Assembly (NCBI RefSeq): GCF_900312745.1
Contig: NZ_OMPD01000014.1
Coordinates: 1,178,001-1,242,000, forward strand
Source: Aquimarina sp. AU58
Lineage (GTDB): Bacteria; Bacteroidota; Bacteroidia; Flavobacteriales; Flavobacteriaceae
Length of the DNA: 64,000 nt
Direction: 5' to 3'
The notes under the pieces were generated by a model. The model ran no database searches and was not told the origin of the DNA. It saw only the letters and a list, made by a program, of their open reading frames with translations. Below, in pieces: positions 1,351-55,021 of the stretch (its first letter is position 1; every line of letters starts with the position of its first letter). The translations under genes and the position numbers were made by a program.

Positions 1351-1380
1351 TAGACTGAATTGTTTTAAATGGTTGCGTAA
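1351..1380 (-). promoter_or_regulatory. Candidate ECF promoter upstream of the sigma operon
   Basis: On the minus strand this reads TTACGCAACCATTTAAA, seven variable bases, then AGTCTA. The same words at the same spacing occur at 2567-2596 before the adjacent lipoprotein gene. A CAAC-containing -35 box and a GTC-containing -10 box about 15 bp apart fit the general ECF promoter layout. Transcription would begin near 1344, giving a leader of about 120 nt before the sigma start codon. Confidence 0.65.
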
Positions 1381-1436
1381 ATGGGATGAAAAGATGTAAT
1401 TAATAATAGGAACGTGCTTTTTATGGTATAAATAAA

Positions 1437-1467
1437 GCAATCTTTCCTTTTTTTAAGGAAAGATTGC
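1437..1467 (-). terminator. Hairpin terminator after the lipoprotein gene
   Basis: Arms GCAATCTTTCCTT and AAGGAAAGATTGC form a 13-bp stem, followed on the minus strand by TTTATTTAT. It sits just after the stop codon of the lipoprotein gene. Confidence 0.75.
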
Positions 1468-1479
1468 TAAAAATAATAA

Positions 1480-2538
1480 TTAACTCTCATCATTATTATC
1501 GCAGGCTTCAGCAAATAAAACTATTCTAATTATTTTAGATTCGTTGGTGTCTGTGTTTTTGATGGTAACAAAAACTAATTGGGGATTAGTTGTGTTTAGA
1601 TAATCAGATGAATCTAATATATTTATTTCTTGTTCTGCATGTTCATAGGTTTGATAAAATGATAATGTTAATAAAGAAGGATCTACATTTTCCTGAAAAG
1701 AAAGAATGCAGTCTTTGTAATCATTAAAAACAAAATTGGCTGTATCTTCAAAATTTTTCAATTCACATTCCTTAAATTCTACATAATCACATGAGTTTTC
1801 GACATTACATTGTCTTTTGATGATGTATGTATCGGTTTCATTAGATATTTCTACAGTTTCATCATCTATTATCAAGGCTTTCCAATCAAAATTCCAATCT
1901 TTGGCTGTTTTAGAATCTCCTTCAAGATGGATATTAATATGTAGTTTACCTTCAAGGAAAAAGGATACCCACGAGGTTCTATACGCATTACCTTTATCGT
2001 AAAAAATACCGGTTCCGTCATCATAAAAATCTAATAACGCCTCATTATAATTTTGGTTATTGGTTAATGAGGTGATTTCCCAAACGCAATTTTTCTCTAA
2101 TATTCTATTACAATAGATAATAACCTCTGATTCGATACAAGCTTCGATTGTTTTTTTTAATTCGGTATTGTCCTGTATGCTAAAGGAACTGCCATCTTCT
2201 AGAATGGTAGTTATAGGATAGCTTAGTCCTATTGCGTCATTGCTTCCTTCTGACTCTTCCAGAAGTCCTACAAAATCAATATTATCATAAACTATTCTAC
2301 TATCTACAATTTCAGAATCTTCATTAAAAAGATATACATTAAAAGGGTAAATAAAAGTGATACAGATCGGTTGATCATCTTCATTCTTATTTTTAGAAAT
2401 ATTTTTTAACGAGTTAAATAGCTCTGAATCTGTTTCTATTTTTTGGATATTATCCGGAAATAAGTCAAAGGATTCATTATGGCAGGAAACCATAGAAATT
2501 AATAGGGCACTAAGCAGTAGGGTTTTAAATGTTGTCAT
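1480..2538 (-). CDS. Predicted lipoprotein of unknown function
   Basis: A 352-residue protein with a signal peptide and lipobox ending at Cys19 (SMVSC), so probably outer-membrane anchored. After an acidic N-terminal third, the middle (about 150-250) contains a CVWEITSL start, DFYDDGTGIFYD and a Trp-rich stretch that look like a lipocalin-like beta-sandwich module common in flavobacterial lipoproteins. Several Cys residues (CNVENSCDY, FKECEL, FAEACDNN) follow. I cannot assign a function. The upstream promoter element matches the one before the neighbouring ECF sigma gene, which makes this lipoprotein a likely member of that regulon. Confidence 0.8.
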   Translation of the reverse strand: MTTFKTLLLSALLISMVSCHNESFDLFPDNIQKIETDSELFNSLKNISKNKNEDDQPICITFIYPFNVYLFNEDSEIVDSRIVYDNIDFVGLLEESEGSNDAIGLSYPITTILEDGSSFSIQDNTELKKTIEACIESEVIIYCNRILEKNCVWEITSLTNNQNYNEALLDFYDDGTGIFYDKGNAYRTSWVSFFLEGKLHINIHLEGDSKTAKDWNFDWKALIIDDETVEISNETDTYIIKRQCNVENSCDYVEFKECELKNFEDTANFVFNDYKDCILSFQENVDPSLLTLSFYQTYEHAEQEINILDSSDYLNTTNPQLVFVTIKNTDTNESKIIRIVLFAEACDNNDES

Positions 2539-2566
2539 GATTACATTATTTAAAGTCTTTGTCTAA

Positions 2567-2596
2567 TAGACTAGTAGTCTTTAAATGGTTGCGTAA
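2567..2596 (-). promoter_or_regulatory. Candidate ECF promoter upstream of the lipoprotein gene
   Basis: Second copy of TTACGCAACCATTTAAA-N7-AGTCTA on the minus strand; the conserved words are identical to those at 1351-1380 and the seven spacer bases differ. The start codon at 2538 lies about 29 bp downstream of the -10 box, a normal leader length. Confidence 0.68.
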
Positions 2597-2733: not shown

Positions 2734-4920
2734 TTAATTTTCTTTTTTATCTCTGTGAGGTTTTCTATCACCTCTTGGTTTATCACCTTCTGGTCTTGGA
2801 GGTCTAGGTAATAATGCTTTTCTAGATACTTTTTCTTTACGGGTTCTAGAATCAATTCCGAAATATTTTACATCAAAGACGTCACCCATATTTACAACAT
2901 CGCTAACATTCTCTGTGCGTTCCCATGCCAATTCTGAAACGTGAAGTAAAACTTCGTTACCAGGAGCTTCCATATATTCTACTACAGCACCAAAATCTAA
3001 CATTTTGATTACTTTCACTTCATATACACTACCAACAGCAGGTTTAAAAGTAATAGCATCGATTTTTGCTAATACTGCATCAATTCCTTCTTGATTTGTA
3101 CCAAGAATCTCTACATTTCCTTCTTCTGTAACAGGATCTTCATTAATTACTATAGTTGTACCTGTAGTTTTTTGTAATTCTTGAATTACTTTACCTCCGG
3201 GGCCAATTAAAGCACCTATAAAGTCTCCAGGAATTGTTTTAGTTACCATTTTTGGAGCGTGTGGTTTCACATCCGCATTTGGTGATGCAATAGTATCTGT
3301 TAATTTTCCTAGAATATGTATACGACCATCGGCTGCTTGCTTTAATGCATTTACCAAAATTTCATAGGAAAGACCTTTTACTTTAATATCCATTTGGCAA
3401 GCAGTAATACCATCGGCAGTACCGGTTACTTTAAAATCCATATCTCCTAAGTGATCTTCATCACCTAAAATATCAGATAAAACAGCATATTTTCCTGTTT
3501 CACCATCAGAAATTAATCCCATTGCAATACCAGAAACTGGTTTCACCATTTGTACTCCGGCATCCATCAATGCCATAGTTCCAGAACATACAGTTGCCAT
3601 AGAAGAAGAACCATTAGATTCTAATACTTCTGATACAATACGTACAGTATATGGGCAATCAGCAGGAATCATTCCTTTTAAAGCACGTTGTGCCAAGTTA
3701 CCATGACCAACTTCTCTACGAGAGGTTCCTCGTATAGGTCTTGCTTCACCAGTACAGAAAGGAGGGAAGTTATAGTGAAGGTAGAATGTTTCTTCTCCTT
3801 CATAAGATGGCATATCAATTTGATTTGCCTCTCTAGAAGTTCCCAAAGTTACTGTTGCTAGTGCTTGAGTTTCTCCTCGTGTAAATATAGAAGATCCGTG
3901 AGTTGATGGTAAATAATCAACTTCACACCAGATTGGTCTAATCTCATCGGTTTTACGACCATCCAGACGTAACCCTTCGTTTAAAGTAAGATCACGAATA
4001 GCGGATTTTTCTGCTTTAGCATAATATTTAGATACTAAATCTCCAAAATCTTCAAGCTCTTCTTCAGAATACGTAGCTTTTATTTCTTCTTTTATTTCTG
4101 AAAAAGCTAAACCACGTTCTTTTTTAGAAGATCCCGCTTTTGCTACAGCATATACTTTATCATATGCCATTTCATGAATTTTCTTAGCTAAGTCTTCATC
4201 TTCTCTTTCTGGGTCGTACTCTCTAACTTCTTTTTTTCCAAAGGCTTCTGCTAATTTAAGCTGAGCAGCACATTGTATTTTTATATGATCGTGAGCGAAT
4301 TTGATAGCTTCTACCATTTCTTCTTCGCTAATCTCTTTCATCTCTCCCTCAACCATCATTACAGAATCCGCAGAAGCACCAATCATCATATCGATATCTG
4401 ACTCTTCTAATTGCACTCTTGTTGGGTTAATGATAAATTCACCATTTACACGACCTACACGTGCTTCTGAAATAGCACATTCAAAAGGGAAATCAGATAA
4501 TTGTATTGCTGCAGATGCTGCTAATCCTGCCATTGCATCAGGCATAACATCATCATCATGAGACATTAACTGAATCATCACTTGAGTTTCTGCGTGATAA
4601 TCTTTTGGGAATAGTGGTCGCAATACACGATCTACTAATCTCATTGTTAATACTTCGCCATCGCTTGGTCTTGCTTCTCTTTTGAAGAAACCACCCGGGT
4701 AACGACCAGATGCTGCGAATTTCTCTCTATAATCTACTGTTAATGGTAGAAAATCGACATCACTTTGTTTGTAATTTGAAACAACTGTACATAATAACAT
4801 ACACTTGCCAGATTGTACAACAACAGAACCATGAGCCTGTTTTGCTAATTTTCCGGTTTCGATAGAAATTTCTCTACCGTCACCAAGGTCAATGACCTCT
4901 TTATAAACTTTTGGAATCAT
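2734..4920 (-). CDS. pnp: Polyribonucleotide nucleotidyltransferase (PNPase)
   Basis: A 728-residue phosphorolytic 3'-to-5' exoribonuclease of mRNA decay, working as a cytoplasmic trimer. Two RNase PH-type domains (about 1-230 and 310-545) flank an all-alpha linker. A KH domain follows ([12 protein letters not shown] with its GxxG loop, about 555-615), then an S1 RNA-binding domain (about 620-690). The C-terminus is a basic Pro/Arg/Lys tail. Length and domain order are standard. It lies downstream of rpsO, a very conserved pairing, but a terminator and a structured leader separate the two, so it may be autoregulated. Confidence 0.98.
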
Positions 4921-53334: not shown

Positions 53335-54429
53335 TTAATTTGCACAATTACCTTCTCCTATAAGTATAAAAATCTCGCCTTCCTTTTCTATTTTTACGTT
53401 GAATTTCTTAGCTAATTCACTCAATACTTTTTCGGTAGTTGCATTGCTAAAAGATCCCGTGTATTTACAATCGAGTAGAGGACTGCGTTTTAATCTAATT
53501 TTGGCGTCAAAATTTTCTCCCAAATCACTTATAATTTGATTCACACTAACATTTTTATAATGTAAAACACTAGTTCTCCAGGCAAATTGATTTGGAGATC
53601 TTTTAAGAAGCATAATACCTTGGGGGTTGACATTAAAACTTTGTCCCGCAACTACATTTTGTTTTTTACCAGTTGTACGATGAATTATTTCTGCAGAACC
53701 TTCAATAAGCGTGATATAATCGGCATCTTTTTCTACAGATATTGCAAAAGAATTTCCGCTAACCTGAACATTACAATAGTTTCCGTGTATCACGAATGGT
53801 TTTGATTCATTTTTCTGTATTGAAAAGAATAAAGTACCAACAAGATCAACTCTTCTATAGCTTTGTATCGAAGTATTAAAATTAACTTTGCTATTTTTTC
53901 TCATTACCATCGTACTCGAATCGGGAAGCTTAATATACTTGGTGTTTTTTGTTGAAGCATATTTTTCTGAAGCGATATAGGATACCCCAATAAATCCTTT
54001 TTCGTTACTTTCTTCGTCTGGCTCTAAAATGGTAGAGTCTATAGAAAAAGTTTCTGTTTTAGAAGTTTTTACAGGTTTATCTTCTGTATTCGATTCTACA
54101 GGTTTGATTTCAATAATTTCTGGTTGCTCTTCTATTTGAATTGTGGTTTGAACATTTTTTGGTTCGACAGAATCGATATTTTCCTGGTGTGAAGGAGTGA
54201 TCTCGGTATTTTCAGGAGTCGTGTCATTCATTACATAATACAGAATGAATATAGCGCAAAGTAATATGGCAATAACAGTTATTTCATACCAAGGTATATA
54301 ATTACGCTTAATCTTTTCTTTCTGTACTGCATTGTATATGTCATCAAACCTATCCTTCGATGGTATAATCGAATCACTTTTAAATTTTGCTTGTAAAAGC
54401 GGTTTTAAAAGGTCTTTATCATCTTTCAT
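53335..54429 (-). CDS. FecR-family anti-sigma/regulator with DUF4974
   Basis: A 364-residue single-span protein. N-terminal cytoplasmic part about 1-45, transmembrane helix about 47-66, an acidic Pro/Glu/Lys spacer, then a FecR domain (about 155-270; YIKLPDSSTMVMRKNSKVNF, GTLFFSIQKN, FVIHGNYCNVQVSGNSF, ITLIEGSAEI) and a C-terminal DUF4974 (about 290-355). It would sequester the ECF sigma encoded 25 bp upstream. Unusually, no TonB-dependent SusC-type gene follows it; the next gene downstream is convergent. Confidence 0.93.
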   Translation of the reverse strand: MKDDKDLLKPLLQAKFKSDSIIPSKDRFDDIYNAVQKEKIKRNYIPWYEITVIAILLCAIFILYYVMNDTTPENTEITPSHQENIDSVEPKNVQTTIQIEEQPEIIEIKPVESNTEDKPVKTSKTETFSIDSTILEPDEESNEKGFIGVSYIASEKYASTKNTKYIKLPDSSTMVMRKNSKVNFNTSIQSYRRVDLVGTLFFSIQKNESKPFVIHGNYCNVQVSGNSFAISVEKDADYITLIEGSAEIIHRTTGKKQNVVAGQSFNVNPQGIMLLKRSPNQFAWRTSVLHYKNVSVNQIISDLGENFDAKIRLKRSPLLDCKYTGSFSNATTEKVLSELAKKFNVKIEKEGEIFILIGEGNCAN

Positions 54430-54454
54430 TTGTTACTCATTTAGGTTTTAAACG

Positions 54455-55021
54455 TTAAAACTTTACAACTCCATTATTCCTCATACGCTCTAATAGCTTC
54501 TTTCTTGCTCTGGTATAGTTAGATCTTGATGTGCTTTCTTTAATATTAAGCATTTCTCCTATTTCTTTATGAGAATATCCTTCGATGGCATAGAGATTTA
54601 GAACATAGCGATACTGTTCGGGTAAATCACTAATAAAGGTTCGTAACCTCTCTATCGATATTTCCTTAGATAGATAGTCTTTTTCAGGCTCTTCTAGTTC
54701 CTGTATCTCATTTTTGTTGATGAAATCTTCATGATCTACATGAATCGTTTTTTTCATTTTATGCCAATGATCAATAGCGCAATTCACAACAATTCTTTCA
54801 ATCCAACTTCCCAGCATTCCTTTATGGCGGTATTTTTGAATACTTTTAAAAACTTTAATAAAAGCTTCTTGTACAATGTCTTCTGCATCAGATTGATTTA
54901 CACAATAGCGAAGACCCACCGCAATCATTCGCGGTGCAAAAGTATTGTATATTTTTTCCATGGCATCCCGATTACCCTTTTTACAGGCTTTTACTAGTCT
55001 GTCTTGTTCTTTTTTATTCAT
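54455..55021 (-). CDS. ECF-family RNA polymerase sigma factor
   Basis: A 188-residue ECF sigma. Region 2 is at about 25-95 (YCVNQSDAEDIVQEAFIKVF, GSWIERIVVNCAID), and region 4 at about 120-180 (LPEQYRYVLNLYAIEGYSHKE). It is followed after 25 bp by a FecR-type anti-sigma gene, forming a standard cell-surface-signalling pair. The DNA words used upstream of this gene differ from the TTACGCAACC element before the first ECF gene in the window. Confidence 0.95.
   Translation of the reverse strand: MNKKEQDRLVKACKKGNRDAMEKIYNTFAPRMIAVGLRYCVNQSDAEDIVQEAFIKVFKSIQKYRHKGMLGSWIERIVVNCAIDHWHKMKKTIHVDHEDFINKNEIQELEEPEKDYLSKEISIERLRTFISDLPEQYRYVLNLYAIEGYSHKEIGEMLNIKESTSRSNYTRARKKLLERMRNNGVVKF

Follow-up and report, generated by a model that had tools for sequence, protein, structure and literature searches.

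The described systems closest to the one analysed here are EcfO-Reo of Phocaeicola vulgatus and Bacteroides fragilis, and Das1-Dma1-NigD1 and Das2-Dma2 of Bacteroides thetaiotaomicron; what is said of the published systems follows the available parts of the respective reports. In EcfO-Reo, the gene of the extracytoplasmic function (ECF) sigma factor is followed by that of an anti-sigma factor described as spanning the inner membrane, the periplasm, and the outer membrane and as carrying a C-terminal barrel, the EcfO regulon includes surface lipoproteins, and the EcfO transcript rises when the system is on. The sigma gene of P. vulgatus rises 33-fold on toxin exposure (PMC9308784), a NigD lipoprotein depends on EcfO-Reo (PMC13114119), and the EcfO regulon of P. 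vulgatus holds three NigD lipoproteins, one with a locus number next to the sigma gene (PMC13114119, PMC9308784). In B. thetaiotaomicron, the anti-sigma gene likewise lies directly downstream of the sigma gene, and deletion of dma2 raises das2 (log2 fold change of 4.54) and adjacent genes (PMC13088901). Das-Dma and EcfO-Reo modules are characterized by an anti-sigma factor that binds and inhibits the sigma factor and whose loss raises vesicle output. Here, we analysed a stretch of 64,000 nucleotides from Aquimarina sp. AU58 (contig NZ_OMPD01000014.1, positions 1,178,001 to 1,242,000; hereafter the window), in which a two-box element of the ECF promoter type occurs twice on the minus strand, before a sigma/anti-sigma operon and before the neighbouring lipoprotein gene. 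The locus is very probably a self-activating envelope-stress switch, in which both sites would be read by the neighbouring ECF sigma factor, with its own operon and the lipoprotein gene as targets.

The element had been proposed in a first-pass annotation of the window, and both 30-mers were found there with zero mismatches, at 2567-2596 (site A, ahead of the lipoprotein gene) and 1351-1380 (site B, ahead of the sigma/anti-sigma operon). The -35 word ACGCAACC occupied 2587-2594 in site A and 1371-1378 in site B, and the -10 word AGTCTA occupied 2567-2572 and 1351-1356, respectively. ECF promoters usually contain AAC in the -35 element and a GTC-type -10 element with 15-17 bases between them. 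Both sites showed AAC and GTC at a distance of 16 bases. They were the sole matches in the window at up to three mismatches, and 100 shuffles gave none. All seven inner bases differed (ACAATTC vs GACTACT), which bore out the annotation in treating the element as a motif and not as a duplicated segment. The genome search that it had proposed, run with ACGCAACC-N12-18-GTCTA over 6,185,987 bases in 16 contigs, returned two matches, both at this locus, and none with the reversed control; the many random hits away from gene starts that the annotation had named as counter-evidence were not seen. Its 17-base word gave 2 exact matches and 38 weak ones with three mismatches; the weak matches were ascribed to chance in view of 66 with the reversed control, and two further candidates found with a relaxed -10 element were rejected, both lying inside open reading frames (ORFs), with one match in the control. 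Of the 17-base word itself only a part held. Among 48 distinct sites collected in 30 Aquimarina stretches, ACGCAACC(T/A)TTT-N10-AGTCTA was the conserved core, and the outer TT and the AAA were not conserved. Because GCAAC, GTC, and the spacing were set by the search pattern, which also restricted three further columns, only the remaining columns of that count are informative.

Read on the minus strand, the gene order was pnp (4920-2734), a terminator-like hairpin of 15 pairs 3' of pnp (2684-2716), site A, the lipoprotein gene (1480-2538, 352 amino acids), which is the predicted first target, a second terminator-like hairpin 3' of it (1436-1468, 14 pairs, -19.4 kcal/mol), site B, the ECF sigma gene (669-1223, 184 amino acids, TTG start), the anti-sigma gene, and rpoD. 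Each site thus lay downstream of a terminator-like hairpin and headed a unit of its own. Three terminator-like sites were present in 3,000 bases vs a mean of 1.4 in shuffles, and therefore their number carries little meaning; it is the two named hairpins that have 14 and 15 pairs. The window holds the 5' part of the anti-sigma gene (1-676), encoding the N-terminal domain, the membrane helix, and part of the linker of a protein of 492 amino acids in full, while the barrel-coding part lies outside it (complete gene, L033:9198-10676).

The footprint of the element within the genus followed this locus closely. Orthologous sigma factors of 67-100% identity defined 27 Aquimarina loci, and in 24 of them the element stood directly before the sigma gene, while in the other three (G048, G024, and G009) it preceded a lipoprotein-like gene that lies upstream of the sigma gene at a distance of about 70-120 bases. 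Full-length orthologues of the window lipoprotein were present in 24 of the 27 genomes, and the element lay ahead of all 24. A relaxed pattern found 54 sites in 29 Aquimarina stretches (265,508 bases) and none in the reversed control; every one of them was on the coding strand before a gene of the locus or its remnant, with 24 before the sigma gene, 24 before the lipoprotein gene, five before other genes judged lipoprotein-like by eye, and one before a lipoprotein remnant. With the strict pattern, the 66 genomes of the genus gave 40 sites in 24 genomes and one control match. All but one of the 40 belonged to this locus, including that of G044, where the site lies on a separate contig with the lipoprotein gene, and a relic in G004; the lone site elsewhere (G025) preceded a lipoprotein-like gene of 477 amino acids. 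The strict site was found in 23 of 27 genomes with an orthologous anti-sigma factor vs 1 of 39 without (Fisher p 1e-12, relatedness not corrected), and all four genomes that have the anti-sigma factor and lack the strict site carried variants of it. Between species the core was kept while flanks and spacer varied.

Irregular loci in the genus were examined as well. In G018, the lipoprotein gene was in pieces over several frames and its site was gone, and the sigma gene kept one (L162, about 3511-4516). In G004, a broken lipoprotein gene retained a relic site (L181, 1485-1740) and there was no close match to the window sigma or anti-sigma factor. These two loci appear to be in the process of decay, the lipoprotein promoter having been lost in the former and a relic promoter left in the latter, where the sigma gene is gone. 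G009 had only a lipoprotein fragment with no site on it, G048 had a different lipoprotein in the usual place, carrying the site, and extra lipoprotein-like genes of 404-420 amino acids in G015, G096, G024, and G009 had sites of their own.

Uniqueness in the genome and conservation before both units support the proposal of the first-pass annotation that the sigma factor would be autoregulated, with the adjacent lipoprotein gene as its first target. The mechanism proposed here, in which the barrel senses, the sigma factor is freed, and both units are activated, is drawn by analogy with EcfO-Reo and Das-Dma. In unstressed cells, the anti-sigma factor would keep the sigma factor at the inner membrane by means of its N-terminal domain and would also reach the outer membrane through its long linker and C-terminal β-barrel. 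Disturbance of the outer membrane would be sensed by the barrel and the sigma factor set free. The free sigma factor would transcribe its own operon from 1351-1380, giving positive feedback, and the anti-sigma factor co-produced with it would reset the switch. It would also transcribe the lipoprotein gene from 2567-2596, the first and perhaps the only strong target in this genome.

The first-pass annotation had called the two genes an ECF sigma/anti-sigma-like pair. This held for the sigma factor by Pfam, with Sigma70_r2 (1.4e-11) and Sigma70_r4_2 (7.9e-18) both above cut-off, and its length of 184 amino acids with sigma-70 regions 2 and 4 is that of an ECF sigma factor (about 185 amino acids). 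An anti-sigma-like gene adjoins it, and what the annotation had not seen was the predicted barrel reaching the outer membrane. The two genes overlap, the sigma gene ending at 669 and the ATG of the anti-sigma gene standing at 676. In 68 of the 80 related loci described below, only TTG or GTG was possible as the sigma start, and in the window only TTG, whereas ATG is the start codon of the anti-sigma gene that overlaps it here; the weak start may keep the sigma level below that of the anti-sigma factor.

The structure of the anti-sigma factor was predicted for the A. macrocephali orthologue (494 amino acids, 78% identical). Helices 5-15 and 27-33 had low confidence (predicted local distance difference test score, pLDDT, 53-61), a membrane helix spanned 41-68, residues 68-272 had pLDDT below 50 and formed a disordered linker of about 200 residues, and eight long strands within 282-493 made a confident barrel (block pLDDT 73-96). 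The best match of the model in the PDB was OmpA (E 4.6e-9). OMP_b-brl matched 14 of 18 relatives at E 0.1 or better and the window protein at 4e-4, yet below the family cut-off. The protein is therefore predicted from the model to consist of an N-terminal domain, one membrane helix, a long linker, and an eight-strand outer-membrane barrel, which is the anti-sigma architecture of Das-Dma and EcfO-Reo. In all 80 related loci, an ORF of at least 200 amino acids started near the sigma stop, with 368-628 amino acids in 70 and 205-247 in 10; the short ones have no room for a barrel, and rpoD was directly next in 7 of the 10. Loci with the short ORF include L221, L225, L226, L231, L238, L239, L240, L256, and L259, three of them from Aequorivita. 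In L246 a barrel-like ORF followed the short anti-sigma ORF, a split that may be a frameshift.

The lipoprotein begins with a hydrophobic stretch ending, by eye, in SC19, and C19 was invariant in 26 sequences. Besides this lipidated cysteine, eight invariant cysteines and one nearly invariant cysteine were present over the 26 sequences, which suggests disulfides outside the cytoplasm. No Pfam family was above cut-off for the lipoprotein family. NigD was rejected as its identity, with no NigD match in the window lipoprotein or 25 relatives and no NigD_C match in this genome. No PDB entry matched the structure model (mean pLDDT 70) at E ≤ 0.001, and its weak matches to the Bacteroides lipoproteins 4qrl, 5byp, and 4zgf (E 0.008-0.035), one described as lipocalin-like, are only a hint.

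The locus therefore resembles the Bacteroidales systems in the order of the sigma and anti-sigma genes and in the predicted anti-sigma architecture, and differs in several respects. NigD in the regulon has been reported for Dma1 and EcfO, whereas no NigD match was found here; since Dma2 acts without raising nigD1 (PMC13088901), NigD may not be a defining feature of such modules. Das1 was assigned to ECF21, while for the window sigma factor, among the matches listed (25 of 106), only the superfamily model of NCBIfam was above its cut-off. The genome has only two strong sites, and the promoter was defined here by comparison. The word "motif" did not occur in the main text of the EcfO-Reo (PMC13114119) and Das-Dma (PMC13088901) papers. 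Within Flavobacteriaceae, an ECF promoter motif is known for SM6 of Flavobacterium psychrophilum, which has a sigma/anti-sigma pair among its targets as here but differs in its CGT box in the -10 region and its type IX secretion genes (PMC9723704); GCAAC did not occur in the main text of that paper. Literature searches for the motif letters found no description of this motif, a GCAACC match in a P. gingivalis sigma paper being a quantitative polymerase chain reaction probe. Other ECF promoters have been reported in B. thetaiotaomicron (PMC12596196).

Beyond the genus, the best 80 of 527 loci, nearly all from Flavobacteriaceae, were compared. In 71 of the 80 loci, the coding strand carried ACGCAACC in the 3 kb upstream, vs 6 loci for the opposite strand and 4 for the reversed word. 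Addition of Aquimarina copies and paralogues gave 119 upstream regions, with some genomes represented twice, and in 103 of them a site could be classified, its boxes separated by 14 or 15 bases, although the rule, which allowed 13-16, slightly favoured this spacing. The -10 triplets were GTC in 50, GAC in 27, ATC in 19, TAC in 6, and GAT in 1. The sites were mostly before lipoprotein genes, commonly 15-60 bases ahead of the ATG, or before the sigma gene itself; the lipobox rule missed several lipoproteins recognizable by eye, and some listed ORFs were an internal sigma start or unclear. In 35 of the 80 loci, phmmer found homologues of the window lipoprotein within 4 kb upstream of the sigma gene, encoded by 36 ORFs and with 1.7e-14 as the weakest match. 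The module was syntenic with pnp and/or rpoD in 59 of the 80 loci, which spanned the GTC, GAC, and TAC classes alike; at a single locus, the -10 triplet has therefore changed between apparent orthologues and the -35 word has stayed the same. The ATC class comprised 14 of the 80 loci, and eight of these lay at recA, as does the paralogue in the genome studied here. The arrangement occurs widely across the family, in many marine flavobacteria, and its -10 element varies there, a point beyond the first-pass annotation. The strict GTC form itself is rare in a family sample of 299 genomes searched for this form only: 7 sites were found, which came from 4 genomes and included the two of the window, and the control matched twice. 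In Dokdonia (L200 and L204), the GTC-driven unit is accompanied by a GAC site that belongs to a second gene, sigma-like by eye, about 2.6 kb upstream of the sigma gene, and two -10 types thus stand side by side.

The -10 classes were then placed on a tree of the sigma proteins, in which identical sequences had been merged (103 to 91) because of the duplicate copies. The classes needed 10 changes on this tree vs 43.6 in shuffles, and the ATC class formed one fully supported group. Residue 81 in region 2 was Asp in all 39 GTC proteins and in 22 of the 26 with GAC, whereas 18 of the 19 ATC proteins had Gln and the six TAC proteins varied; Asp81 agreed with G as the first -10 base in 86 of 91 rows. 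It ranked first among the sigma columns in the raw ranking, but residues 159, 170, and 177, outside region 2, were close behind, so that such a ranking cannot by itself pinpoint what reads the -10 element. These comparisons give an even chance to a wider interpretation, namely that an old module of lipoprotein, ECF sigma factor, and barrel anti-sigma factor between pnp and rpoD has kept a constant -35 ACGCAACC and switched its -10 element (GTC, GAC, and TAC in orthologues, ATC in the recA-linked paralogue), which would be read by region 2 with residue 81, insulating paralogous switches that share one -35 element.

Several observations weigh against these interpretations. Extra lipoprotein genes of 309-310 amino acids in G042 and G033, closely downstream of the first lipoprotein gene, had no site of their own. 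Sixteen of the 119 upstream regions had no site by the rule and were left out of the -10 analysis, at least nine of these holding near variants such as AAGCAACC or ACGCAACT excluded by the rule or its score. In the family sample, five strict sites lay outside the genus, three before lipoprotein-like genes, one before a glycosyltransferase-like gene, and one with no ORF. The clustering of -10 classes on the tree would also be expected from plain vertical inheritance of the locus. Finally, the covariation of residue 81 with the first -10 base came down to three independent contrasts on well-supported branches (median p 0.5), too few for a tree-aware proof, which failed; because the 86 of 91 agreement reduces to these three, residue 81 is a lead and not a proof.

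Other ECF systems of the same genome bear on which sigma factor reads the element. Beside recA (L183:2009-4629) there is a paralogous operon of lipoprotein, sigma factor, and barrel anti-sigma factor, whose lipoprotein gene is preceded by AAGCAACC-N14-GCATCTA. The paralogues thus agree over much of the -35 word, and the element might be read mainly by another ECF sigma factor, such as the recA-linked one, or be common to several. We consider this improbable, since the -10 element differs (GTC vs ATC, the ATC class forming one fully supported group on the sigma tree) and since the strict GTC site tracks this module, whereas paralogous anti-sigma matches occur in most genomes of the genus (an anti-sigma match of some kind in 63 of 66). 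On the minus strand of the window, the region 53335-55021 encodes a further ECF sigma factor of 188 amino acids, 40% identical to that of the locus, with a downstream protein that resembles, by eye, a FecR-type anti-sigma factor; ACGCAACC was absent from the 2.5 kb before this sigma gene.

Less probable still is a role of the element as operator for an ordinary DNA-binding regulator. Position and conservation alone cannot tell a promoter from an operator, but a pair of boxes spaced by 14 or 15 bases and bearing AAC and GTC, GAC, TAC, or ATC cores, mostly located 15-60 bases ahead of a lipoprotein ATG, argues for a sigma promoter, as does the lack of a TAnnTTTG box in the spacers of sites A and B. 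This box is that of the flavobacterial primary sigma factor (PMC9723704). Chance or a duplicated segment, which two identical words near each other might have suggested, is refuted by the exact window sites with entirely different inner bases, their uniqueness in the genome and absence from shuffles, and the conserved placement in Aquimarina loci with a kept core between variable flanks and spacers.

The kind of system is already known; what is new is that the promoter has been defined and found to be conserved, with a -35 element that stays constant and a -10 element that changes. Envelope-stress switches of this class, studied through mutants and transcriptomes of gut Bacteroidales in the reports available, thereby gain a promoter defined by sequence, and the pattern allows candidate targets to be listed in any flavobacterial genome. 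The natural variants, with one -35 element, four main -10 triplets, and 91 sigma sequences, provide a ready test of how promoter specificity changes. By analogy, the lipoprotein of the flavobacteria would be equivalent in function to NigD and belong to a different sequence family. The pairing of the sigma factor with one lipoprotein family across genera points to the lipoprotein as a main product of the response, and makes it a sensible first gene to study.
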